Below, in pieces: positions 6,625 to 46,000 of a DNA stretch of 64,000 bases (within the stretch, counting starts at the first letter, position 1; each line of letters starts with the position of its first letter). The stretch is taken from the NCBI GenBank assembly GCA_944320725.1, contig CALUIM010000020.1, forward strand, positions 1-64,000, in the 5' to 3' direction. Source of the stretch: an uncultured Coriobacteriaceae bacterium. Its GTDB lineage: Bacteria; Actinomycetota; Coriobacteriia; Coriobacteriales; Coriobacteriaceae. The notes beneath the pieces are model-generated. The model was not told the origin of the DNA. It did no database searches and saw only the letters and a program-made list of their open reading frames with translations. The translations under genes and the position numbers were made by a program.

Positions 6625-8115
6625 CTAACCTGTATTTAGATTTGCTTGAATGAACAACTCTCTTAAACCGGTCCTGTCATCCCCCCATAATCTGCCATAC
6701 TGCATCGCTTGGTTTTCTATACGACGGGTAACCTCCATTGCCCCCGCAGCAATTTGCTCCACAGTTTTGTCGGGAAACAGAGCGTCACGGATTGGTTGGT
6801 CTGGGCCGAACGCAGCGATTACCGCTTGTTCGACACGCGAGTCGTTATATACACAACAAGCGGGATAGGCGCTTCCCCTACCATCACCGGATATCTCTAC
6901 ACAGAGGCAGAACAGGTAATCAAATGAACATAGAAGATCGAGCGCTCGCTCATCTGAAGAGCTCAAGGCACCATCGTTCTTGCTATGGGCAAAGCTCAGA
7001 TTCGGAAGGATGATATGCCGGGTGCTCAGACGCTCGAGTGCCACAGAAATGAGATTATCGGAGTTTTCGCCACCAAGAAGGTTGCTACGAGATGCACCAA
7101 CTTGTGCCTCACGGATCCACGAGGCGTAATATGAAGAGCCATTCGGTAGCGATTTCCTATTTACAAAGGGGGAAATCATATCCCACTGGCGAAACAAAAC
7201 CATGCCCGCACCTATCTCATATGCAGCAAGGGCACAGGCAAGTTTCTGCCGGAATCCGTCTTGCGTGAAATCTTGAATCTTTAGATAAGCGGAATAGATT
7301 GCATCTATGGCGGCCTGGGCGATTGCCTTGTTGCCATAGCCCAGCGCCCTGTTGGCAACAACCGCCAGGTCCTCGACTACCGAAAGGTTTTGAGGTGCAT
7401 CAAGGGAGAGTTCATTGATGAAGTGGGTTATCTTCCCAAATTCATTATGCTCGAAATTAGCGGTCAGTGACGAATCTAATGTGGCATCGTCGAGCCCGCA
7501 AACCAAGGGCGGCGTCTTTCCTTTCTCGCCTAAAGCTACGGTTACCCTATCGATAAGGCTGTTGATTCGCTTCCTCTCGTCTTCTCGGATTAGCTCATCG
7601 CGCCTCCTCAATATCTCCGACCATTGATCGTAGCTGATGCGCCCGTTCTGGCCGCCGTCACGGCGCACAATATCACCTTTGCGGAAAACGGCGACAGTAT
7701 CCTTACCTTTTCTGTAGGTTCCGTCTTTGGAGAACGGGACCGGAAGTCCATCGTCGGGGCTTTTGAAGAAGATGATGAAGTAGGTGTGCCCATCAAGCTC
7801 GCGCCTCGCGACCAAAGGGGAAAGCTTAATGGGGACGTACTTGCTGATCTGGTCAGCAAGCTTGGTGCAGTCGAACTGGGACCAGTCGGCGGAATTGATT
7901 AGGTCGGAAGGAAATCCGTTATTATCCGCTCCGATGACGAGATAGCCTCCGGGATAGCGGTTGAACATCGCGAGCGCGTCTTTGACGAATTCGACCTTGC
8001 ATCTTTGATTGCTCAGGTCGAGTGTCTCTTTATAGTCGACGGCGTAGTTTTCTCCACCGGCTGCGAGGAGCTCTTTTAGTTTCTCATCGTCTGTTCGACC
8101 GTCGATTGCAATCAA
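6625..8115 (-). CDS. AlbA_2 (Schlafen-like) domain protein
   Basis: A 496-residue cytoplasmic protein. The first 155 residues match the AlbA_2/Schlafen-type domain: YAVDYKETLDL, a run of conserved lysines and acidic residues, PGGYLVIGADNNGF, then a YFIIFF strand and GTYRKGKDTVAV. The rest (about 160-496) is mostly helical and not recognised. AlbA_2 proteins bind nucleic acid and often occur as regulators or effectors in defence islands. Here the gene sits between the GmrSD-like and Mrr genes. Antiviral function is an inference from context. The start at 8115 has GGGGGA upstream in the antisense of 8122-8127. Confidence 0.7.
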   Translation of the reverse strand: MIAIDGRTDDEKLKELLAAGGENYAVDYKETLDLSNQRCKVEFVKDALAMFNRYPGGYLVIGADNNGFPSDLINSADWSQFDCTKLADQISKYVPIKLSPLVARRELDGHTYFIIFFKSPDDGLPVPFSKDGTYRKGKDTVAVFRKGDIVRRDGGQNGRISYDQWSEILRRRDELIREDERKRINSLIDRVTVALGEKGKTPPLVCGLDDATLDSSLTANFEHNEFGKITHFINELSLDAPQNLSVVEDLAVVANRALGYGNKAIAQAAIDAIYSAYLKIQDFTQDGFRQKLACALAAYEIGAGMVLFRQWDMISPFVNRKSLPNGSSYYASWIREAQVGASRSNLLGGENSDNLISVALERLSTRHIILPNLSFAHSKNDGALSSSDERALDLLCSFDYLFCLCVEISGDGRGSAYPACCVYNDSRVEQAVIAAFGPDQPIRDALFPDKTVEQIAAGAMEVTRRIENQAMQYGRLWGDDRTGLRELFIQANLNTG

Positions 8116-9385: not shown

Positions 9386-10312
9386 CTACTCCTCACCGAA
9401 GTAATCGCTGTCAATACGCTTGATGCGATACGTCTTCTCAGTTGAAACGCCAAGATCGTATTGGACCATCAGCTCAGTAAGGCGCTTGCCGTCGATGAGC
9501 ACGAGCGTCGCATGAGGGTAATGCCGCGCCCAGTCGACGGCGGTCTGGGCAAAGCTCGATGTCGTGATGAATACGCCCCGCGTGATACTTCCGAGCGCTC
9601 CGGCAAAGCCCTGAAGCTCAGGGCGACCAACATGGTTTTCCGATGCGTAACGCTTTGCTTGGACGTAAATAGGATCAAAGCCCAGGGCATCAGTTGCAAT
9701 GATGCCATCGACACCGCCGTCATTCGCGATACGGGTTTGCTCACCTTGGCCGTAGCCCATCTTAACCAGAAGATCGACGACAAGCTTCTCGAAGAACCCG
9801 GGTTCCTTATCCATAACCAAAGAGAGCAGGGAATCCTGCAAATCGGTGTTCAGCTGGACAAACGCGGAATCGATTTGCTCCTGTGGCGAAGTCTCGTCCG
9901 CAGAACCGGACAGAACCTCATCATCCGAATAATCCTCGTTCTCCTTCGCCTTGGAGCTTTTCTTTTTCTTCGTCTTCCAAGGATTGTTCTCAGCAATAGC
10001 TTTGTTCATTTCCTCAACAAGCGTATGCGCATTATCGTGCCTTGAAAGAGCAATGCGCCCATAATCGCTGATCTTATACACACCGTAGGTTACCTTGGTG
10101 AGCATACCCGCGCGAGCAAGATAGGAGACAGACCAGCTTACGCGGCTACGGTAAACAGGCACTCCGCTTGAAGTCACAATGGTTTGCTCCCGATTGGAAA
10201 GGCCGAGCATGGCGCGTGCATCGTGGATGATATCAATGCGCTTACGCTCTTTGCCATCACCCATAAGCTGCAAGGTCACAAGGAACATTTCTGTTTGAGT
10301 GGGGATAGCCAT
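9386..10312 (-). CDS. mrr: Mrr-family restriction endonuclease
   Basis: A 308-residue protein. The N-terminal Mrr_N winged-helix domain (about 1-95, including SRVSWSVSYLARAGMLTK and YKISDYGR) is joined by a lysine-rich acidic linker (about 110-150) to an Mrr_cat PD-(D/E)xK nuclease. In the nuclease the catalytic signature is DGGVDGII followed by YVQAKRY (about 225-248). Mrr enzymes cut methylated DNA. The start lies 21 bp after the hsdR stop on the same strand, so it appears to be the last gene of the type I restriction operon. A type IV enzyme in the same unit as a type I methylase would need to tolerate that methylation. Confidence 0.9.
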   Translation of the reverse strand: MAIPTQTEMFLVTLQLMGDGKERKRIDIIHDARAMLGLSNREQTIVTSSGVPVYRSRVSWSVSYLARAGMLTKVTYGVYKISDYGRIALSRHDNAHTLVEEMNKAIAENNPWKTKKKKSSKAKENEDYSDDEVLSGSADETSPQEQIDSAFVQLNTDLQDSLLSLVMDKEPGFFEKLVVDLLVKMGYGQGEQTRIANDGGVDGIIATDALGFDPIYVQAKRYASENHVGRPELQGFAGALGSITRGVFITTSSFAQTAVDWARHYPHATLVLIDGKRLTELMVQYDLGVSTEKTYRIKRIDSDYFGEE

Positions 10313-10333: not shown

Positions 10334-13300
10334 TTATGCGGCAGGAGAAATGGCGTTCTCCTTGATTGACTTGATCACACTCACCAGATTCATCTGCTGC
10401 TGAGTGTTAAAAATCTGCATGAAGGACCGCGGACGATCGAAAGGCGGGCTGTTAAGAGCCGCAGGCTCCAAATAGCCATTCTCGACCACATAATCAACCA
10501 CGCGCTTGATAAATGATATTTGTTGTTCATTGAGGCTCTGGTCATTTAGAAAGCCCGCAAAGGCCTCCATTGCGGCATCCCTATCAAGGTGAGCAAGCTT
10601 GCGAACTAATAGACCGAACGGAGTATTTCCGTATGCTTTCGCATAGTCTTCCGCGTTGCCAAGCTCATGAGTAAAAATGAGTTCGAGCTGGTCAAACTCG
10701 CATGCTGTCATTGGCTTATTGGTTCGAAGCTTATGAATAACAACGTTATCGGCATAATCCTTGAGATAGCGTTCGACCTTGAGCTTATAATCTTCGAAAT
10801 CTTCACCGATATCTGCGGTTGCCCCATAGGTTACCTGTGTGACCGGATCGTCGAGATGCGTAACGACATCCCGATGCGACGGACCGACAATAATGAACTG
10901 TATGAGCGATCGAAGCCTCTTACGAATGTCCTCGAGGAACAGCAGATCCGCCCCATCCAACACTTCTCCCTCTGCAATCTGCTTAATTAGAGGCAGCTGC
11001 TCGTTTATCTGGGGAATCGTTGTTCGCGATTGCAGGGACCTTGCCATGCCCACCAGTTTTCTTTTGTACAAGTCTGCCTTCTGGGCATTGCATGTCGCAA
11101 TCATGTATCCATACATAATGTTGTCGAAGCGGAGTGCGGAAAAATCCCTCTCATTGTTAACGACGAGCATAGAAATCGGGTTTCTGAGCTCGGCAAGCGA
11201 GACCTCGGAAAGTAGCGTGAACGACTCGACTCGACGGTATTTTTCTACTTCTCGACGATGTTTGCGAACCGTAAAGAGCTCATCGTTTAGCGCAACAACC
11301 TGGCTGTGCATAGTCTCAACAAGCTCTTTTCTCCATGACTGATAGTCATCACTCACGAAAGCGCTATTTTGCAAAAGCATAGCAAGCTCTGCTTGCCGTC
11401 GAAATATCTGCTCGGCAACAGAAACAGCAAGCTCGCCTTCAACTACGTTTGGATTTTCGCGGAAGAACTCGAAATTACGGCACCAATCGAATATGAAGAA
11501 TCGTTCCTTATCTTCATGAACTCCATCTAGCGGGTCAACAACATTCAAACCCTCGCATAGACGCGTTCCGCGTCCGATCATCTGCCAGAATTTGATTTTA
11601 GAACGAACCCTTTTGAAGAAGACAAGGTTCACAATCTCGGGCACATCGATACCCGTATCCATCATGTCGACAGATACGGTAATGACAGGACAGGGCTTTA
11701 GCTCGAAATCTTCAATGATGGTGTGGGCGTAGTCATCCGAGTGAACAACAACCTGAATATAGTCCCCTGGAAGTCCCGGGAAAAGCTTGCCGAAACGTTC
11801 CGCAATGTAGCGCGCATGTTTTTGGTTTTGAGCGAAGATTACAGATTTTCCCAGCTCCTGCCCACCTTGAACGTGGATGCCCATTTCCATAAGCGCAACC
11901 AGGACGTGATCAACTGTCTCCTCGTTAAAAACCCATCTATTAAGATCGGTATTCTCAATCTTATCTGGAACGTCCTGCCCTACATCCTCAAAGTCTTCCT
12001 CAATCTGTTCCCGTTCTTCAGGAGACAGCTCGTCGTAGGTAATGCCTTCATCAATAAAGCTCGTATGAGTCTCTATACCAAAATACGGCACAAGCACATG
12101 GTCAACTTCTGTTGCTGTTTTGTATTCATAGACATACGTAGGCACACCGCGCTCGACATCAAAGAAATCGTATGTGTTTCGATCCACCTCGTTCGCAGGT
12201 GTAGCCGTAAGCCCAACAACAAGAGCATCGAAGTAAGTAAAGATCTCCCGGTACTTTCTGAAAATTGACCGATGGGCCTCATCGACAATGATGAGATCGA
12301 AATGCGCTGGCGTAAACATGCGATCACCATCTTCATTTCGCTCCCCATCAATTGCATTCATAATGGTTGGATACGTAGAGAAGACGATGCGAGCGTTACG
12401 TTCATCCTTGTTTGAACAGAGATTGCACAGCGACTCATGAGGCAAATAATCCTGATATGCGTGCTTCGCTTGCCTCACAAGCGCCACACGGTCTGCTAAG
12501 AACAACGTGTTTTTGACATGCCCCGAACGCATAAGCACGTCAACCAGGGCAGCTGAAACACGAGTCTTTCCCGTACCCGTAGCCATGACCAGGAGACTCT
12601 TGCGATGCCCCTCTTCGATGTTGGCGCACACGCGTTGGATAGCTTCAACCTGGTAGTAACGTCTCCCTCCGCCTGCAATCTTCTCATCTACTGACAAGGT
12701 TGTGGGCTTTAGGATGGATGTCCTGCGGTTGATTATCCTCTGCAAATCTTCTTGTGAGAAAAAACCGCTGACCGAACGTGGGGCACCGTTTTCATCGTCA
12801 ACAAATAGCGTAGTAAAGCCATTGGTAAGGAAGATAGGCGGCTTGTAGCCAAACTCGCTCTCAAGGCACCTCGCATAGAGCCGTGCCTGTTTGAGCCCTT
12901 TTTGCTCAGAATAAGAGGTACGTTTCGCTTCGACGACAGCGAGAGGACGTCCATTTTTGCCCATAAGCAAATAGTCGATATATCCCACGCCAGTATTGTT
13001 ACCAGGCTCCACGGGCATGCCGTATACTTCTCGCTCCTGAAGCGCAGTCTCATCAAGCTTCCAACCAGCAAGCGCCAAATCCCAGTCAATGTAGTGTTTA
13101 CGTGTCTCGAACTCCGAAATGTCTTCTGGGTTGAAATCGCGCTTCGGCTTATCATTTTCTTTGATTTGAGCAGCCTGGGCACTCAATTTCTTAAGCTCGG
13201 CTTCGAGTCGCTTGATCTCCTCGTCCTTTTCAACAAGTAGCGACTCGCGATCTTTGATGGCCTTAATCTGGTCAGCTGTAAGCTGGATGCCTTTCTTCGG

Positions 13301-13717
13301 AATCTTGCGCTCATCGAAGGTCCGTACGGAATAATCCGGACCGTAGCAATAGTCGATCCAATCGATGAACTCAAAGAGGCTCCGCAAAACCAAGATTGCG
13401 TCTGTAGGAGTGACAACGCGCTCGGTATGCACTGAGAGATTGCCGAGCTTGTTTATGCCAAGGAGTTTTCGCCACACACGCCCATCGACAACATTCATGA
13501 AAGATCGCTCATGTAGCAGCGACGACAAATTGTCACGATAAGGCATGTGAATGTCGTTGTCGATTGCGTAAACCCACTTAACCGCAAGCTCGAGTGCCTT
13601 ACGACAGCCGACCGCGCACATTGCGGGAGAGGTAGCAAAGACTTTCTCTGCCTCAATGCAAGCGTCCGCAAAGAGGCTATAGTAGCTATCTTCGCGTTTA
13701 AGAAAATCAAAGTTCAT
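10334..13717 (-). CDS. hsdR: Type I restriction enzyme subunit R
   Basis: The motor and nuclease subunit of a type I restriction-modification complex, 1127 residues. Domains in order: a DUF4145-like N-terminal region (about 1-130), a charged coiled segment (about 160-195), and the HSDR_N nuclease with GYIDYLL and AVVEAKR (about 245-266). These are followed by the SF2 helicase core with Walker A ATGTGKT near 380, VDEAH near 478, VGLTATP and motif VI QMIGRGTR, then an EcoEI-type C-terminal domain. The ATG overlaps the stop of the upstream hsdS copy as ATGA. This is the classic hsdS-hsdR coupling, and here it joins the second, start-less hsdS. Confidence 0.95.
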   Translation of the reverse strand: MNFDFLKREDSYYSLFADACIEAEKVFATSPAMCAVGCRKALELAVKWVYAIDNDIHMPYRDNLSSLLHERSFMNVVDGRVWRKLLGINKLGNLSVHTERVVTPTDAILVLRSLFEFIDWIDYCYGPDYSVRTFDERKIPKKGIQLTADQIKAIKDRESLLVEKDEEIKRLEAELKKLSAQAAQIKENDKPKRDFNPEDISEFETRKHYIDWDLALAGWKLDETALQEREVYGMPVEPGNNTGVGYIDYLLMGKNGRPLAVVEAKRTSYSEQKGLKQARLYARCLESEFGYKPPIFLTNGFTTLFVDDENGAPRSVSGFFSQEDLQRIINRRTSILKPTTLSVDEKIAGGGRRYYQVEAIQRVCANIEEGHRKSLLVMATGTGKTRVSAALVDVLMRSGHVKNTLFLADRVALVRQAKHAYQDYLPHESLCNLCSNKDERNARIVFSTYPTIMNAIDGERNEDGDRMFTPAHFDLIIVDEAHRSIFRKYREIFTYFDALVVGLTATPANEVDRNTYDFFDVERGVPTYVYEYKTATEVDHVLVPYFGIETHTSFIDEGITYDELSPEEREQIEEDFEDVGQDVPDKIENTDLNRWVFNEETVDHVLVALMEMGIHVQGGQELGKSVIFAQNQKHARYIAERFGKLFPGLPGDYIQVVVHSDDYAHTIIEDFELKPCPVITVSVDMMDTGIDVPEIVNLVFFKRVRSKIKFWQMIGRGTRLCEGLNVVDPLDGVHEDKERFFIFDWCRNFEFFRENPNVVEGELAVSVAEQIFRRQAELAMLLQNSAFVSDDYQSWRKELVETMHSQVVALNDELFTVRKHRREVEKYRRVESFTLLSEVSLAELRNPISMLVVNNERDFSALRFDNIMYGYMIATCNAQKADLYKRKLVGMARSLQSRTTIPQINEQLPLIKQIAEGEVLDGADLLFLEDIRKRLRSLIQFIIVGPSHRDVVTHLDDPVTQVTYGATADIGEDFEDYKLKVERYLKDYADNVVIHKLRTNKPMTACEFDQLELIFTHELGNAEDYAKAYGNTPFGLLVRKLAHLDRDAAMEAFAGFLNDQSLNEQQISFIKRVVDYVVENGYLEPAALNSPPFDRPRSFMQIFNTQQQMNLVSVIKSIKENAISPAA

Positions 13718-14796
13718 GCCAGCTCGCCCCGCCTGATAATCGCGACCTCACTTGAAGCCTTTACGTCATTATACTTAAGCACCTGCTGCTGAACGACAAC
13801 CCGCGATTTGCCGACCTCGGCGGCGAAGGCGGCGAACTCGCGTTGGAGAGCAAGAGGTGGAACGGGCACGCACAGCCGAGCAAGCTCGCTTTTCGGAATA
13901 TTGCTCATCGATTTCGCGGATCCGTGCGCCAGGCTTCTCACTTTGTCGAAATACGGCCCACCTAACAAGTGGCTCAGATACGCCCCCTCCACATCGTCGT
14001 TGGGATGCATGCGAAAAACGATGTCGGGAAACATGATGCGGCCAGCAGTCTTATGAACCAGTACGCTTCTCCCAACAAGCTCAGGCGTATTCTTTCTTGC
14101 AAGGAGAATATCTCCATCAATAACCTCCTTTGCCGCCACAAAGGAGTCCTCGGAAGGTAAAGCCTTGTTCTCATGCTCTAGGTAAACACCCGAGGAGATT
14201 CCACTGAGCTTAAGGACCCCCGGCTTTGTTCCCCTCCGTGGACCAGGTGCGCATTTCGGACTTTTCCCGGAATCAATTGCGCTTACGCACGCCGACAGAG
14301 GCAACTGGCAGAAGGAACTTCCATCCCCGAACATCTCGACAAAGCGGGATTTGACCAGGTCGTCCAGGAGGGAGAGGCAGCGAGCTCCTTGGCTTTCAAG
14401 CAGCTCTATAGCTTCTAGACGACCAACTAAACGCTCCTGCTTTACCAAAGATGGACAGAGCACCAACCTCTTTGAATAATCCTTGAAATAAATATGGGGA
14501 ATCGTCGACCCCGTGAACCCCTCGCCTAGCCTCAGAGAGCGGACTAAGTGAAGAAGATACCTGCAGGAGACGCCCTCTTTCGGAAGCAAGGTCTGCATCG
14601 TTCCAAGCACAGACGACTTAGGTTCGCACAGCATAGCCCGTCCAACACCGGCACCGTCCTTAACTACAGCAACGCAAGGAAATTCATTCTGATAGATAGT
14701 CCTAGTCCCAATAATCCCTGACGCCCCGTAGACAGGATAGGGCCCATCGTTGACAACATCTTTCTGCCTTAGCGTAGACTTCCCCTTGGAGCACAC
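13714..14796 (-). CDS. hsdS: Type I specificity subunit, start-less (silent) cassette
   Basis: A second large HsdS copy with two target-recognition domains. Its central conserved helix LLDDLVKSRFVEMFGD and distal helix EFAAFAAEVGKSRVVVQQQ are nearly identical to those of the hsdS gene at 15987-17192. The frame is open back to the recombinase stop codon (14845-14847) and includes KPPFAGEA, the N-terminal block of the other copy, at 14818-14842. It lacks the ATG-GCT-GAC start found there. The GTG at 14796 used as the formal start cuts into the first recognition domain and has no ribosome site. I read it as a donor cassette that becomes expressible after recombination. Its stop overlaps the hsdR start. 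Confidence 0.75.
   Translation of the reverse strand: MCSKGKSTLRQKDVVNDGPYPVYGASGIIGTRTIYQNEFPCVAVVKDGAGVGRAMLCEPKSSVLGTMQTLLPKEGVSCRYLLHLVRSLRLGEGFTGSTIPHIYFKDYSKRLVLCPSLVKQERLVGRLEAIELLESQGARCLSLLDDLVKSRFVEMFGDGSSFCQLPLSACVSAIDSGKSPKCAPGPRRGTKPGVLKLSGISSGVYLEHENKALPSEDSFVAAKEVIDGDILLARKNTPELVGRSVLVHKTAGRIMFPDIVFRMHPNDDVEGAYLSHLLGGPYFDKVRSLAHGSAKSMSNIPKSELARLCVPVPPLALQREFAAFAAEVGKSRVVVQQQVLKYNDVKASSEVAIIRRGELA
13784..13815 (-). repeat. hsdS direct repeat, distal block
   Basis: 32 bp at the 3' end of the silent hsdS, identical to 16042-16073 in the active hsdS and in the same orientation. It encodes the VGKSRVVVQQQ helix of the conserved distal region. Confidence 0.9.
14325..14376 (-). repeat. 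hsdS direct repeat, central block
   Basis: 52 bp with one mismatch to 16589-16640 in the active hsdS, in the same orientation. It encodes the central conserved helix between the two recognition domains, the usual exchange point for making chimeric specificity subunits. Confidence 0.9.
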
Positions 14797-14817
14797 GTCC
14801 CCCAGCCGGACGCGGCG

Positions 14818-14842
14818 CGCCTCCCCGGCAAAGGGGGGTTTG
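14818..14842 (-). repeat. hsdS direct repeat, N-terminal block
   Basis: 25 bp with one mismatch to 17160-17184 at the start of the active hsdS, in the same orientation. It encodes KPPFAGEA. In this copy it directly follows the recombinase stop codon and has no start codon. Confidence 0.88.
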
Positions 14843-14844
14843 CC

Positions 14845-15825
14845 TTATGCGATGTATCTTCGATGCGACATGCGAACGTTACGCTGGTCGACCATTGCGT
14901 ACCTGAGCGTCGTATCGATCTTCTGATGTCCAAGCAGCACCTGAACCTGCTCGATAGGCATGCCTTTATCAATGGCGCGCGTCGCAAGCGTTCTTCTGAA
15001 CTTGTGAGGATGGACACGGCAGATTCCCAAACGCCGCCCTAACTCACGGAGCCGAATCTCAACCCCACTAATTTGTAGTCTCTTATAAGGGCTGCAAAGC
15101 GAAACAAATAGAGCCGGGTTATCGTCTGTGCGCTCCGAAAGATACTCGACTAAATGGAGTTTAGTTCGCGCATCAAAGTAAACGCGCCGTTCCTTTCCGC
15201 CCTTTCCCAACACGATACATTCCCTGGCCTCAAAGTCGATATCTTCGCGATCAAGGTTTACCAACTCTCCCACACGAATGCCGGTCGAAGAAAGCAGATC
15301 GACTATTGCAAGGTCCCGCTTTGACGTACAGCCATCACGCATCAGCTCGATCACTTCGTCGGAATAGGTTTCCTTCACAGTCTTTACCGTCCGAATTTTC
15401 TTGATACGACGAGCGGGGCTCTTGTAAATGTAATCTTCCGCCTCAAGCCATGAAAAGAAACTCGATATAATGCGTCTCACGTTATCAATCGTCACGTTGC
15501 CCGCACCGCCCTCCTCTCCATAGCTACCTAGATACGAGCGAATCTGCTCAGTTGTAACAAATGTGAGAGAGCAGTCGAGCGTACCCAAAAAACGAACGAG
15601 CGTGCTTCTGTAGTACTTAAGAGAACGACCAGAGCACCCCTCGAGACGTTTAGCATCGAAAAACGCCTCGAGGAGCTCAGCGTTACCGAGACGTTTATGC
15701 CGCTCGACAGTTTGTTCGACAAAGCACTCGATAAGCGCGTCGTGTAGCCGGCACATCTGAGCGCCATCTAGCGCTGTCGCCATCATCCGCTCGACCTGAC
15801 GAATCGCGTCACCAACTGACAACAT
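14845..15825 (-). CDS. Tyrosine recombinase linked to hsdS exchange
   Basis: A XerC/D-like site-specific recombinase of 326 residues. A SAM-like N-terminal DNA-binding domain is followed by a catalytic domain with Arg in TGIRVGEL (about 180-187), Lys in KGGKERR, HPHKFRRT, His in LGHQKIDTT and the nucleophile Tyr in LRYAMV (about 308). All catalytic residues are present. ATG 15825 is preferred to an upstream TTG because GGAGG lies 5 bases before it. It sits between the two large hsdS genes and its stop abuts their shared N-terminal repeat. By analogy with recombinases of phase-variable type I systems, it probably rearranges these hsdS genes. Confidence 0.88.
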   Translation of the reverse strand: MLSVGDAIRQVERMMATALDGAQMCRLHDALIECFVEQTVERHKRLGNAELLEAFFDAKRLEGCSGRSLKYYRSTLVRFLGTLDCSLTFVTTEQIRSYLGSYGEEGGAGNVTIDNVRRIISSFFSWLEAEDYIYKSPARRIKKIRTVKTVKETYSDEVIELMRDGCTSKRDLAIVDLLSSTGIRVGELVNLDREDIDFEARECIVLGKGGKERRVYFDARTKLHLVEYLSERTDDNPALFVSLCSPYKRLQISGVEIRLRELGRRLGICRVHPHKFRRTLATRAIDKGMPIEQVQVLLGHQKIDTTLRYAMVDQRNVRMSHRRYIA

Positions 15826-15986
15826 ACCTGCCTCCAATCATCCGGGAAGCAAGCGTAACGCGAGCACGCTATTCGCCCCGTTGACATTCAGCCTGTGCAA
15901 GAAGCCGCAGCATCTAAGCACACCTAATGTGCTCGAGTGGTTTCATTCAATCCCAACGAAAGGAATAGTTCGCTTTTGTCGACAAT
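15826..15986. other. Gap between hsdS and recombinase gene
   Basis: 161 bp containing TGCTCGAGTGG and TTGACATTC-like stretches on the plus strand and the recombinase ribosome site. It may hold a separate recombinase promoter. No repeat shared with the hsdS blocks was seen. Confidence 0.35.
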
Positions 15987-17192
15987 CTAACCAAAGTAAT
16001 CTTGCGCAAGGCTGTCGTAGAGCGTTTGTAGCTTCTTGATTTGCTGCTGAACGACAACCCGCGATTTGCCGACACGCTCGGCGAAGGCAGCGAACTCCTT
16101 TTGGAGGGAGAGCGGCGGGAGGGGAATCCGAACTTTCTGCAAATCAGTAATTGACAGGTATTTGACCGTGGTACCACTGCAGCTGTCATTCAACTGTTTG
16201 ACAAATTGACTATTAGAGAACAGTTCGACCAGCCAGGCTGACAATGGGCTCTTCTCCGTTTTCGACAGCCAAGTAATCATACCGTCTTGAAAGTAAAACC
16301 TGTCTCTGTCACTGACAACATAACACCTGCCCAAAGTCCCTCGCGACGTAACCAAAATATCTCCTGCTGCGGGTACATAACCAGCTTCCTTCAGGTTCAA
16401 GTACTTTCCTTCAGCAATACACAACCCTGACGGAGGTTTCTTGTCATCGATCAGACTGGCAATATCTGCCAGTCGATAAAATGGGACCCCTTCTTTCGTT
16501 AGCTCTTTCGCATAGATCCGCTTTGAGGATTTGATCTGATAGATCTCGCCTAGACACTTAACGTTAAATTGATCTCGACGAGTTAGGTCCCCGAACATCT
16601 CGACAAAGCGGGATTTGACCAGGTCGTCGAGGAGGGAGAGCCGGCAGCGGGAGAGCTCAATCAAGTTAGCTAATAAATCCAATATGTTGACGATACGCTC
16701 GCGGTCACTCTTCACATAGATCGGAACTGTAAGAGAGTAAAAGTTGGAAGGCTTCAGGTTGTTAATGTTTGAGCCGTAGCAAACCTCTTGAGTGGTCCTT
16801 CTATAGACTCCCGATTGAAAGTAATGCCCAAGATAGTCCGCCTCCCCACAAAGGGAACGAAGCACACAACAGAAGGCACCGAATGTAGCGGAAACGTCCC
16901 GCTTGACCAACGCCGCCTTTCCCACGAGACCCTTACTACCACTTGATGTACAGACAAGGATGTCGCCTTTTCTCAGCAACTGAGAAGATCTCACCTTTGA
17001 CCGATCAACATACTGCACATCACTGAGGACCAACTTCCCATCCTGGATGTTGTTTGCCCGAAGAAGAGTAATGCTGTCGTCATCAAGTTCCCGGCGAAGA
17101 TCTATTCCCGCCCTGTAGGCTACCCCTCTGATGAACTCAACACGCCTCGCTAAGTTGTTCGCCTCCCCCGCAAAGGGGGGTTTGTCAGCCAT
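15987..17192 (-). CDS. hsdS: Type I specificity subunit, expressed copy
   Basis: HsdS of 401 residues, which sets the DNA sequence recognised by both methylase and nuclease. The N-terminal block KPPFAGEA is followed by recognition domain 1 (about 12-165), the conserved helix LLDDLVKSRFVEMFGD (about 180-196), recognition domain 2 (about 200-355) and the distal helix EFAAFAERVGKSRVVVQQQ. The ATG overlaps the hsdM stop (TAATG), so translation is coupled. Downstream lie the recombinase and a second hsdS with three matching direct-repeat blocks. A run of six C/G pairs occurs at codons 5-6 and could also slip, although it is short. Confidence 0.93.
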   Translation of the reverse strand: MADKPPFAGEANNLARRVEFIRGVAYRAGIDLRRELDDDSITLLRANNIQDGKLVLSDVQYVDRSKVRSSQLLRKGDILVCTSSGSKGLVGKAALVKRDVSATFGAFCCVLRSLCGEADYLGHYFQSGVYRRTTQEVCYGSNINNLKPSNFYSLTVPIYVKSDRERIVNILDLLANLIELSRCRLSLLDDLVKSRFVEMFGDLTRRDQFNVKCLGEIYQIKSSKRIYAKELTKEGVPFYRLADIASLIDDKKPPSGLCIAEGKYLNLKEAGYVPAAGDILVTSRGTLGRCYVVSDRDRFYFQDGMITWLSKTEKSPLSAWLVELFSNSQFVKQLNDSCSGTTVKYLSITDLQKVRIPLPPLSLQKEFAAFAERVGKSRVVVQQQIKKLQTLYDSLAQDYFG

Positions 17193-18712
17193 TAGAGCTC
17201 ACCGCCCAGCATCTTCTTGAGCTCTGCAAGCCCCGCAACCATCTGTGCATTAAGGTCCTCGAGGTCGGCAAGGATCTCTTCGGTAGGCGGATACTCAATA
17301 CGTTCATATTCGGTCTTCGCGTACTTGTTGAAGCTAAAGTCGTAATCATTATCGACGATTTCCTGCTTCGGAACGAGAAAGCTCTTCTCCGTGCGCTCGC
17401 GCTCACCCTCAGCATCGAGCTTCGTCCAGCGCTCAAAAATGTCAGGAATGTCGTTGTGCTTCTCGTCTGGATCACGCTTGTCGTCGAGCGTGTAGCCATC
17501 GCTCTCCATGTTGTAGAGCCAGACGTTATTTGTGCCACCAGCGTTGGTTTTTGTAAACACTAGGATTGCAGTGCTTACACCCGAGTACGGTTTAAAGACG
17601 CCACTAGGCATATAGATAATTGCTTCGAGCTTCTGATTCTCCACTAACTCACGGCGCAGCTGTCCATACGCCTTCGAATTTGAGCGGAACAGCACCCCAT
17701 TGGGGACGATGCATGCGCAGCGACCGCCAATTTTAAGCATGCGCAGGAAGAGCGCCACAAAAAGTAGCTCGGTCTGTTTGGTGTTGACCATGGCGCGCAA
17801 GCTTTTATTAATATCCTCAACATCAACCGATCCGGTAAAAGGTGGGTTCGCCAGAATGACGTCGAACTTATTCGAAATGTCATTCTTCTGCGAAACGCTG
17901 TCGAGGTAGCGAACATCAGGGGCCTCAACCTCATGCAACATGAGGTTCATAGCGCTGATGCGTAGCATCGTTTGATCCATCTCAAAACCGCTGAACTGAG
18001 GCTCAGCACCGTTCGTGCCCATGAAGGCATCCCATTGTTCAGCCGTCATCCCGTTCTCGTAGTTGCTACGAATATGCTCAGCAGCGGAAATCAGGAAACC
18101 CGCCGTACCGCAAGCAGGGTCGCATATAAGCTCACCAGGCCTGGGATCAACAAACTTCACCATCATCTCACGGATATGAGCCGGGGTACGGAACTGGCCA
18201 TTAGTGCCCGCCGTAGAAAGCTTTGAGAGCATATATTCGTAAAGATCGCCAAGGTCGCCGATATGCTCATCGAAGTCGCTAAGCAACTCATCTACACCTG
18301 TAACCGCCTTCTCCAAAAGCGATGGCTTACCTGCAGGGAATCCGAAAGTGGCATTTTCCATCGCGCGAGAATAGGCCGACTCGTCGCCAAGCGTCTTAAT
18401 GAAAGGAAAGGCGAATTGGTCAACGATGCGATACATATCCTCGGCGCGCTTGTCTTTAAAGCTACTCCAACGCATCTCTTTGCCGGTGATGACCTCTTTG
18501 CGATCGTTCTCATACTCATCCGGAAAAATGTGGGGCAGAGGCTCACCGAGCATCATCTCCATACGCTCCGTTTTAAGCTCCTTTTCGTCGAGCTGGCGCA
18601 TGAACATGAGATAGGTAATATTGGTGATAACGTCGAGAGGATTGGTGATGCCACCTTCCCACATCTTTTGCCAGATGGCATCTACTTTGTTCTTTGTTGC
18701 TCCGGTAATCAT
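17192..18712 (-). CDS. hsdM: Type I modification methylase subunit M
   Basis: N6-adenine methyltransferase subunit of 506 residues. The N-terminal helical HsdM_N domain is followed by the SAM-binding motif DPACGTAGF (about 185-195) and the catalytic NPPF motif (about 290). The C-terminal tail joins HsdS. It methylates host DNA with HsdS and is required for restriction with HsdR. It sits between the half-size hsdS upstream and the full hsdS downstream in one minus-strand operon. Confidence 0.95.
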   Translation of the reverse strand: MITGATKNKVDAIWQKMWEGGITNPLDVITNITYLMFMRQLDEKELKTERMEMMLGEPLPHIFPDEYENDRKEVITGKEMRWSSFKDKRAEDMYRIVDQFAFPFIKTLGDESAYSRAMENATFGFPAGKPSLLEKAVTGVDELLSDFDEHIGDLGDLYEYMLSKLSTAGTNGQFRTPAHIREMMVKFVDPRPGELICDPACGTAGFLISAAEHIRSNYENGMTAEQWDAFMGTNGAEPQFSGFEMDQTMLRISAMNLMLHEVEAPDVRYLDSVSQKNDISNKFDVILANPPFTGSVDVEDINKSLRAMVNTKQTELLFVALFLRMLKIGGRCACIVPNGVLFRSNSKAYGQLRRELVENQKLEAIIYMPSGVFKPYSGVSTAILVFTKTNAGGTNNVWLYNMESDGYTLDDKRDPDEKHNDIPDIFERWTKLDAEGERERTEKSFLVPKQEIVDNDYDFSFNKYAKTEYERIEYPPTEEILADLEDLNAQMVAGLAELKKMLGGEL

Positions 18713-18744: not shown

Positions 18745-19338
18745 CTAGTCGTTAGTCTGCACCACACGAACAAACTCGCTTTGAAGTAACAGGTCGCTCT
18801 TTTCTGAAATGACTCGACATAGCTCCTTGTATCCTTGGATACATTCTGAAAGCGCCCCCAGCCGAGCCTGTTCCGCTGGCGTTGGAACTGGAACCATCAG
18901 ACCGCCGATATCTCTCTTCTTTAAGAGTTGGATGGTCATGCCCTTGCTCATTGTTTGAAGCTCGAGATGCGTCCGTTGAAGCCCCAGGAATGCAGCAAGA
19001 TAACGCATATCAACCGGGGATTTGGAAAACGAGCGCAGAATGAATCCAAATGAGGTGACAAGCAATCCCTCGTGACCTTTGTCGATATAAACGCAATCAT
19101 AAGGAGTGGATGCTTTGACAATTACATCGCCTTCGCGCGTGAACAGATCGTCCTTAACTTTCGACACCACCTCGCTTACAAGCTGAGCGTCATCGATACG
19201 AGAACCTGTCATCGCTGCCGGAACGAGGACTTTTGTCCTGATGGGATCATCGCTATCCGTTATTTTCTTAGCACGGCTCATAGGTGCGCCAGTCTTTATT
19301 TCGACAAGCGAGCCAAGAGGCAAATAATCGCAGGACAT
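18745..19338 (-). CDS. Half-size specificity subunit (single recognition domain)
   Basis: 197 residues with one HsdS-type target-recognition domain followed by one conserved helix (PTPAEQARLGALSEC and following), about half the length of a normal HsdS. It does not share the repeat blocks of the two large hsdS genes. The second ATG (19338) is taken as the start because AGGAG sits 6 bases before it. The first ATG touches the ribosome site. It is the first gene of the restriction operon, 32 bp before hsdM. Half HsdS proteins can pair as homodimers to read palindromic sites, so this could give the methylase another specificity. It could also be a remnant. Confidence 0.75.
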   Translation of the reverse strand: MSCDYLPLGSLVEIKTGAPMSRAKKITDSDDPIRTKVLVPAAMTGSRIDDAQLVSEVVSKVKDDLFTREGDVIVKASTPYDCVYIDKGHEGLLVTSFGFILRSFSKSPVDMRYLAAFLGLQRTHLELQTMSKGMTIQLLKKRDIGGLMVPVPTPAEQARLGALSECIQGYKELCRVISEKSDLLLQSEFVRVVQTND

Positions 19339-19681
19339 GTTCATCTCCTTTCTGAACTACTCATTTCAGTTGAAATGGCGTTTGGCTTTTGGCCGCCATC
19401 CCCCATCGAGCTTTATTTGTGGAAACGAAGTCAACAACTTTCCCCTTCCCTTCGATTCGAAGCGCGCAATTCGAATCGTTAATTGAAACATGTTCCAATT
19501 GTTAAGAACAATATTATGCAGACGGTAGAAGGACGTCAATGTATTTGTTCAAATTAATTGGAACATTATCTCTATAACCACCTCACGCTGCTTGTTATCA
19601 GCGTTAACCACGGCATTTTTTCCGCACAAACAGATATGGTTCAGCTGAATGCAAGCAGCGACCTCTGGATGGAGGCGAGCC
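19339..19681. promoter_or_regulatory. Divergent promoter region of the restriction operon
   Basis: 343 AT-rich bases between the divergent restriction operon and a plus-strand gene. Near-palindromic GTTCCAATTGTTAAGAAC-type sequence lies at about 19491-19508, and TTCAAATTAATTGGAACA at about 19549-19566. They share the GTTCCAATT/AATTGGAAC core in opposite orientation and could be paired operators. No gene was found. Confidence 0.4.
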
Positions 19682-43079: not shown

Positions 43080-46000
43080 CTACTCACCCGTCCCTTCACT
43101 TGCCTTGAATTCGTTCTCGATCCTCGCATCATCGGAGAACCAGCTGTCGTTTTCGAGCACGTTGGTGGCCTTGACGCGGACCGGCGTCAGCTGGGCATCG
43201 GCGCCCTCGCCGCTATAGCCTGCGTACTTGACCGTCACGCTCGTACCGTTGTCCATAGACTCCCATGCGGACCCCTGAGAGAGGCACTTCTGAAGAGAAA
43301 CGGTGTAGCGCCATGCCCAGCCGGTATCCTCTTCAACGGTGTAATCGCCATAGGGGAGCTGAACCCGTGCCGAGGCGGTGTATGCGCCGTCGTCAGGCTC
43401 GTTAGGAAGGGTAATCAGCACCGTCTGACTCATCGTCTTATCGGCACTCGTCACCTTAAAGGTGAAGGTCTGACCGGCTGCCTCCTCATCATTTGAGGTC
43501 TTGGTGATCTCGAGCATGCCGTTGAAGGTAAAGATGGCATCGCCCTTCTCGAGCTTCACGCCCGAAACTTCATCCTCATCAGAGCGGGTCACGTCCGTAT
43601 CGAGCGCAATGCCGCCAGAGCTGTCCTTGGCGTACAGGCGAACGGGAACGTCCTCCATGCCCTGGGGCGTTGGTGCTTTGCCGTCACTGCCATCGTTATC
43701 GGCGGTATACACCAATCTGTCCACACTCACCATGAGCCAGGGGTCAGTGTAATCCTCGGTAAGAAGCACGTTCACCGCAAGAGCATCGGCATCCGTAGTA
43801 CCATCTTCGTTCGCAGGTGCCTCGACCGCCCAGTTCACGCTCTTCGTGTAGTCAACCGCCGCGCCATTGTCCGGCTTCTGCGCACTCAAAGCGACGGTGA
43901 TGGGATACAGGTCAACCGTGCCATCGGCACCAGTTAGCTCGCCGATGCCCTTATGCGTGAAGTTGTTAGGGTCAGCGCTATTCCACTCCTGGTAGCCATC
44001 GTCCATCTTGAGCTGCCAGTTGATGAACTTCTCGTAGTAGGTTCCGTCCTTCGCAGCAAGCTCGCTCAGAATTGCGCCGAACGCCTCACCGTCGTAGACC
44101 GCGTCCTGCGTATTGCCCTCTTCTATCTCAACCTCGTAGATAAAGCCATCGCTCGTATAGCGGCCCTCATCGGTTCCCACACTCTGCGAGAAGATGATCG
44201 AGCCGTCGGTGCCGTGATAGTTGATGACCGTCGTCTCCTCATAGATGGCTACGTAGACAGCGCCATCCTCGAACCGATCGGCACCGGTCAAACGGAACTC
44301 GTGCGCCTGGGTGATAAAGCTACCATCGCCGCCCTGCTTCTGCCAGCCCTTGAACTCATAACCAGGAACATCCTGTGCCACGATCCAAAGACCGTCCGCG
44401 TCAGAAGCACGCTTCTCAACATAGCGAATCTCGTCAAGGCTCATCCCAGCGGTCTGGAAGGCAGTGTCCTGGTTCGAGATGACGCTTACCGTTCCTTGGC
44501 GGTACACAGGCCAAAGATCCATGGAATGGTTGACCGTGTCCACGCCCGGGCTGGCAAAGACGATGTCATCAACGTAGTCAATCGGGTCATTCGAGGTGTC
44601 ACCGGCAGGCTTCTCTGCCCAGCCAACGAAGAAGCCCTGATTTTCATACGAAGGCTTACGCGTAGGAACAGGCAGCTTGTTGCCCACCTCGAGCTCATCA
44701 AAGACCTCGGTATCGTCCGTATTATGGTGATACGTCACCGAAACAGGGATGGGCTTGTAGTTCGCCCGGAAGATATAGCTGTGACCGAGCGTGATAGGAA
44801 TGTCGAACGCAATCGTGCCGGCACCGTCGTCCTTGATTCCCTGATCAAGCGAGAGCTCCTGCTCGACTCCGTCAACCGAGACCGTGAGGGATACAAGCTC
44901 GTAGTTCTTATCGCTGCCCTCCTTGATGAGGCCGCCCAGATCGGCTGCCACCTCGAGTGTGACGTTGCCGTGGCGATCGTAGTTCAGCTGCACCTCAGTA
45001 CTCTTATTACCTACGACCGCTTCATTCTGCAGCGGGAACTTAGGATCAGTAGGTGCATAGTTGACCTTGGTCCAGAAGTATGTCGACTCGCTCTTGCTCG
45101 TGCACACCACGCTAGGAATGCTGGGGAGGTTGAAACCATCCGGCACGCCGGCCTCGCGCACGTTGGTGCTCGTCTGGATGGAGATGGGAACGTATACCGG
45201 ATAGAGCTCGGTCGGACGCGTGCACACGGCGGTGTCTTCGTCAATGAGGTAAGGCAGGACGCGCGTTACATGCTCAACGGTTTTGATGCTACTGTCACTC
45301 GCCGCTTCCTTACCGTCCTGGAAGATGTAGTCCCACTCGCCTTGTGTCATCTCACCGTACTTGACAGCAGAATGATCAATCCAGCCAAGGAAGGCATATC
45401 CCGCCGGTGCGTCAAGCTGTGCCTCAAAGCCAACCTCATAGTTACGCGGAACATCTTCTTCATCGCCCGCAGTATCTGTTACACCAAGCTCGATCGTTCC
45501 CGCAGGCTTGGCATTCTTGTAGTAGTAATCCACCCTCTCCATATCGGGAGTGAGCTCCGTTAAGCCAATGAAAAGATTCTGACGATAGCGGCGTTCGACC
45601 ATCATATCTTCACCCTTAGGAAGACAGAAGGTCACATTCGCAGTCATATGAGCTACAGCATGGTAATCATATCTGGTGTCCCAAGCGGTTCCCATATCCC
45701 AATCTGTTTTGGTAGAAGTACTCTGATTTGGAAGGTGACCGTCCTCTCTACTGAGTGACCAGAACTTGAAGTTGAAACCTTCATTAAGCGTATCCAGCTT
45801 GGCGTGGGTGTAACCAGTAACCCCAGGTTGAGTTGCCGACACCTCAGCACTGCCCGGGAAATCCGTCGAGACGGCGATTGGACGAGGCTCACTGCTGTCG
45901 TCGCCACTCCAATGCCCATGGACATCCATCGGATACAGCACCTGCCAAGGATTCGTTCCATTGGACAAATCGAAATCTTGGAGTTTTGGATTGGTTGCAG

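Follow-up and report, generated by a model that had tools for sequence, protein, structure and literature searches.

How could a type I restriction-modification system change its specificity when its two specificity (hsdS) genes lie in the same direction around a tyrosine recombinase, with no inverted repeats to link them? The question is raised by a locus in a 64,000-nucleotide stretch of DNA from an uncultured Coriobacteriaceae bacterium (GCA_944320725.1, contig CALUIM010000020.1, positions 1–64,000; here ‘the window’), for which an earlier note had offered a one-way or circle-mediated cassette switch or, alternatively, a recent duplication frozen in one state. Of these readings the circle-mediated switch has the best support, and with a probability of about 0.8 this is a specificity-switching type I locus that works like tvr (SpnIV) of Streptococcus pneumoniae, the closest known system.

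Two specificity genes and three pairs of direct repeats

The genes concerned are all carried on the minus strand, where an Mrr-type endonuclease gene follows the last of them:

17195–18712, minus strand: hsdM, type I methyltransferase subunit (Pfam N6_Mtase 3e-60, HsdM_N 6e-12)
15990–17192, minus strand: hsdS1, the active specificity gene, an open reading frame with segments a1-b1 (Pfam Methylase_S 6e-24)
14848–15837, minus strand: tyrosine recombinase (Pfam Phage_integrase 1e-31; NCBIfam NF040815 above cut-off)
13717–14844, minus strand: hsdS2, the silent specificity gene, segments a2-b2 (Pfam Methylase_S 9e-6)
10337–13717, minus strand: hsdR, type I endonuclease/translocase subunit (Pfam ResIII, EcoEI_R_C, HSDR_N)

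The three subunits hsdM, hsdS and hsdR are thus encoded together, with Pfam domains found for each, and the locus is, to judge from its sequence, a complete type I restriction-modification system. The frames of the recombinase, hsdM, hsdR and both hsdS genes are open. With its stop codon included, hsdS1 covers 15987–17192, the recombinase 14845–15837 and hsdS2 13714–14844. The recombinase has all of its R, K, HxxR, H and Y motifs intact, and its start is probably the ATG at 15825 behind a GGAGG, in a region conserved with Enorma massiliensis (NZ_HE978575.1, L011), a member of another genus in the same family. The hsdS1 ATG begins one base before the end of the hsdM stop, and a gene-free gap of about 150 bp separates hsdS1 from the recombinase. 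The downstream copy, hsdS2, opens in frame straight after the recombinase stop (TAA GGC AAA CCC CCC) with no ATG there, the first in-frame start-like codon being GTG 14796, 16 codons in; its own stop overlaps the hsdR ATG (ATGA). The two genes share three pairs of blocks:

17160–17184, minus strand: block P1, 25 bp, core CAAA-CCCCCC-TTTG at 17171–17184, just after the hsdS1 ATG
14818–14842, minus strand: block P2, 25 bp, core CAAA-CCCCCC-TTTG at 14829–14842, directly after the recombinase stop
16588–16645, minus strand: block M1, core CAAA-TCCCGC-TTTG at 16604–16617, between the hsdS1 recognition segments
14324–14381, minus strand: block M2, core CAAA-TCCCGC-TTTG at 14340–14353, between the hsdS2 recognition segments
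16042–16073, minus strand: block T1, core CAAA-TCGCGG-GTTG at 16055–16068, near the hsdS1 3′ end
13784–13815, minus strand: block T2, core CAAA-TCGCGG-GTTG at 13797–13810, near the hsdS2 3′ end

All three pairs are in direct order. P1 and P2 agree over 25 bp with one mismatch (15 bp exact), M1 and M2 over 58 bp at 95% (within which 52–53 bp carry one mismatch and 41 bp are exact), and T1 and T2 are exact over 32 bp. The longest exact match between hsdS1 and hsdS2 is 41 bp, where 12 dinucleotide shuffles gave 9–11 bp; in inverted orientation, no match of ≥14 bp was found between the two hsdS sides. Block P is present only twice in the genome, in one orientation, which rules out inverted P copies elsewhere in it. 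In all of this the earlier note had described the locus correctly: same-direction hsdS genes around a recombinase, three direct blocks, and a start-less downstream copy laid out for coupling to hsdR.

Its suggestion of a recent duplication, in contrast, is rejected. Away from the blocks, hsdS1 and hsdS2 have recognition segments that share 52–53% DNA identity, compared with 48–50% after shuffling, and a pair so close to random is not a recent duplication. Moreover, the gene order and strand of the window are kept in E. massiliensis, where hsdS2 is also start-less and directly follows the recombinase stop. The recombinases of the two loci share 92% protein identity, and hsdM, recombinase and hsdR are orthologous at about 80% DNA identity each; all four E. 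massiliensis recognition segments are unrelated to those of the window.

Predicted exchange between like sites

In the proposed mechanism the recombinase would pair like sites (P with P, M with M, T with T), and we infer that it cuts at the core and is active in this strain. Recombination at a direct pair would release a circle of about 2.3 kb, on which the recombinase would travel with two recognition segments. Re-entry of the circle at the same type of site would restore the original locus, whereas re-entry at another type would re-sort the recognition segments and with them, presumably, the methylation motif; loss of the circle would leave a shortened form. Because a start codon is present only in the hsdS that follows hsdM, one specificity would be made at a time.

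When like-with-like exchange was enumerated on the real sequence, it gave four full-length arrangements and four shortened forms, with circles of 2258–2342 bp. The active HsdS of the four linear states has 401 (a1b1), 375 (a2b1), 373 (a2b2) or 399 (a1b2) amino acids, that of the shortened forms 378–406, and the hsdS frame is intact in every product. Of the two switches first offered, it is thus the circle-mediated one that stands: reintegration at three site types yields four full-length arrangements, and the change would be one-way only if the circle were lost.

Direct layouts in the recombinase family

The earlier note had taken inversion to be the usual mode of such systems, which does not hold for the family of the window recombinase. 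A search of related genomes, which it had proposed as a check, covered the nearest 80 of 551 recombinase loci in species-representative genomes, a sample biased towards the window's own kind of recombinase; hsdS genes lay in direct order on both sides in 57/80, with an inverted hsdS in 15/80, on one side only in 7/80, and were absent in 1/80. When 88 recombinases were placed in a tree, loci of the inverted type were strongly clustered, 15/19 falling in a single well-supported clade; those of the direct type extended across Actinomycetota, Bacillota, Spirochaetota, Synergistota, Deferribacterota, Bacteroidota and Fibrobacterota. Given this count and this distribution, the direct layout is the rule near the window recombinase.

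A natural record of switching in the family is provided by four Lactococcus plasmids (L105–L108: pJM2A, pUCCL627F, pJM1A and pUC073A), which carry one recombinase protein and differing hsdS arrangements. The junctions sit on a 25-bp element with TAAA-TCATCA-TTTA, the same core geometry in inverted order. Records of 5–6 kb labelled ‘phage’ and carrying a related recombinase were considered as excised circles, but showed no terminal overlap and look like bacterial contigs. Several Coriobacteriia (L048, L029, L035) have the order hsdM–hsdS–hsdR–recombinase–hsdS; in L048 hsdR is flanked by direct repeats, and excision there would take hsdR out with the recombinase, perhaps switching between restriction and methylation only.

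A shared core and a block-specific spacer

On the coding strand P, M and T all contain CAAA-N6-KTTG, with the spacers CCCCCC, TCCCGC and TCGCGG respectively, and the three E. massiliensis spacers are identical to these. That one core is common to all three blocks, with a 6-bp spacer largely specific to each block type, is new here. Across the recombinase family the general form is YAAA-N6-TTTR, found complete in 56/143 exact repeats between the upstream and downstream sides of family loci (0.22 expected after shuffling) and lying ≤60 nucleotides from the recombinase stop in 23/58 direct loci (about 1 expected). Spacers within one locus were identical in 49/56 same-type pairs and 1/110 different-type pairs; between loci, same-type pairs agreed in 698/4301. 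Since tyrosine recombinases generally need homology in the spacer, the 6-bp spacer would serve as an address by which exchanges at start, middle and tail sites are kept separate.

These data also bear on whether the recombinase is incidental, with RecA-type homologous recombination on the blocks producing occasional deletions or chimeras and no site-specific cutting. With exact matches of 41 bp and 32 bp, M and T are of sufficient length to allow rare homologous exchange, and excision of tvr weakly continues without its recombinase TvrR (PMC6265443). Yet P offers just 15 bp of exact match, and its core is nevertheless kept at the recombinase stop in two genera; the core recurs at that position in the family, hsdS orientation is strongly clustered on the recombinase tree, and tvr circles were still formed in a recA mutant (PMC6265443). 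Homologous recombination alone is accordingly a very improbable explanation.

Comparison with known systems

In tvr, excision of a circle and its reintegration shuffle the hsdS genes. The hsd genes of that locus all share one strand, its direct repeats are of two kinds with a common core, circles have been detected, and activity is confined to the hsdS that lies upstream of the recombinase (Kwun 2018, PMC6265443; Croucher 2014, PMC4263131). The window locus resembles it in having its hsd genes and recombinase on one strand in the order hsdM–hsdS–recombinase–hsdS–hsdR, in the tyrosine recombinase between the hsdS copies, of which the upstream one alone is active, and in midpoint (M) and tail (T) direct repeats that share the short core CAAA-N6-KTTG. 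It differs in its host, a member of the Coriobacteriaceae, and in a third repeat at the extreme 5′ end (P), with which the segment next to hsdM can move; in tvr that segment stays put. No homologs of the tvrAT toxin-antitoxin genes were found before the recombinase in the gene-free gap of about 150 bp, nor was a terminator-like attenuator (fold z-score 0.73), and an attenuator or known RNA at this position is rejected. With tvrAT and the attenuator absent, control of the recombinase must be different from that of tvr, or looser. Because two tvr features are lacking, the locus is filed as a tvr-like variant, not as tvr itself, alike in layout and repeats and probably in mechanism.

With ivr/SpnIII and its recombinase PsrA/CreX (PMC4948785, PMC7394358) the window locus shares the type I class, the presence of additional hsdS segments and a tyrosine recombinase, encoded in the locus, by which specificity is changed; inverting loci, too, are served by related recombinases of the same core geometry. 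Unlike in ivr/SpnIII, the hsdS copies of the window run in the same direction with no inverted repeat of ≥14 bp to link them, so that exchange would delete rather than invert. Phase-variable hsdS systems were defined by a REBASE survey that looked for inverted repeats (PMC7394358), and direct-order loci would therefore have escaped it.

Possible variation in related genomes

In a genome of the same genus (G005) hsdM and hsdR are 97% identical to those of the window, but the locus is split in its assembly. A first contig stops, reading ...ATGGCCAGCAAACCCCCCTTTGCCGGGGAG, with the final base of block P behind hsdM; the next begins 39 bp before the shared tail region, just ahead of block T, and the middle of the locus is absent from the assembly. 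Such a break suggests live variation; it would be accounted for if a unique hsdM end ran on, past P, into more than one sequence. As the assembly is broken here, a clean excised form, with hsdM and no recombinase, is unsupported. Elsewhere in the family, contigs end within about 15 bp of a core at loci L023, L036, L040 (both ends), L017, L041, L065 and L070.

The break in G005 counts against the window locus being a locked relic, once shuffled and now fixed, its hsdS2 an unexpressed leftover and its recombinase idle. One state of this strain has been seen, hsdS2 has no start codon, and the second recombinase-linked locus of the genome, on contig C15, is without a downstream hsdS, all of which a relic would accommodate. 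Against it, hsdS2 is open throughout and the recombinase motifs are intact, the blocks are 95–100% identical with all exchange products in frame, and the layout is kept in a second genus. A relic is, on balance, unlikely. The C15 locus (L005 1–2016) itself holds, at a contig end, a recombinase of the family 61% identical to that of the window, before which lie an hsdS tail with a TAAA-CTGAGG-TTTG core of its own and an open reading frame of 236 amino acids of unknown function.

The complete replacement of recognition segments between the window and E. massiliensis loci, otherwise 80% identical, could also be read as the work of a mobile cassette, in which an outside ‘hsdS + recombinase’ unit enters the 5′ site of a resident hsdS, silences it and brings a new specificity. 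Such insertion would fit the two positions of P, one immediately behind the ATG and one immediately behind the recombinase stop, and a relative of the second half of hsdS2 (b2; 55% identical) is found in another genome of the family (L131; G016 C22, near 44869–45423), where it adjoins a related recombinase in a locus of the inverted type. However, neither a multi-cassette array with several recombinases nor a cassette lying outside an hsd locus was found; M and T are conserved, although cassette insertion has no need of them, and ordinary recombination of the flanks can also replace segments. Cassette entry is thus the remotest of the explanations weighed. Recognition segments appear, from these sequences, to circulate between loci of direct and inverted layouts.

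Several points weigh against a tvr-like switch. The strain is known from one assembled arrangement, and switching itself is something we infer. The likeness to tvr is drawn from layout and repeats, with the recombinase assigned to NCBIfam NF040815. The contig breaks in G005 and across the family could also stem from short repeats, low coverage or dropped short contigs, and the natural rearrangements seen in Lactococcus are inversions, not excisions. Finally, because the M and T cores fall within protein-conserved regions of hsdS (KSRF, KSRV), conservation of the motif at these two blocks is partly protein-driven; the P core lies outside such regions, and a codon-usage test for a DNA-level core at M and T, a weak one, gave AAA and TTT fractions of 0.28–0.44.

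Neighbouring genes

The Mrr-type endonuclease gene (9389–10312, minus strand) lies directly 3′ of hsdR, a position that it also has in E. massiliensis, and close to it is a Schlafen/AlbA-domain gene (6628–8115, minus strand); these genes possibly belong to a small defence cluster. Upstream, hsdM is adjoined by an open reading frame of 199 amino acids (18748–19344, minus strand), which is conserved in E. massiliensis and weakly resembles one HsdS recognition domain (NCBIfam MAD5, E 2e-4). Ligilactobacillus salivarius plasmids (L109–L112) likewise have solitary hsdS-like genes ahead of their methylase genes.

Significance

We incline, somewhat tentatively, to a broader view, in which the window locus belongs to a widespread class of direct-order hsdS shufflers that act by excision and reintegration, occur in at least seven phyla and have been missed by inverted-repeat surveys; their recombinase would read YAAA-N6-TTTR, with the spacer as address, so that start, middle and tail exchange only like with like and all products stay in frame. 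If this is true, a switch known experimentally from the pneumococcus only would be common in gut and rumen bacteria, and searches for inverted repeats would under-count switching of type I specificity. The proposed code of core and spacer would open to direct test the rule of which segments can be exchanged, and would allow such loci, and the states possible to each, to be read from sequence.

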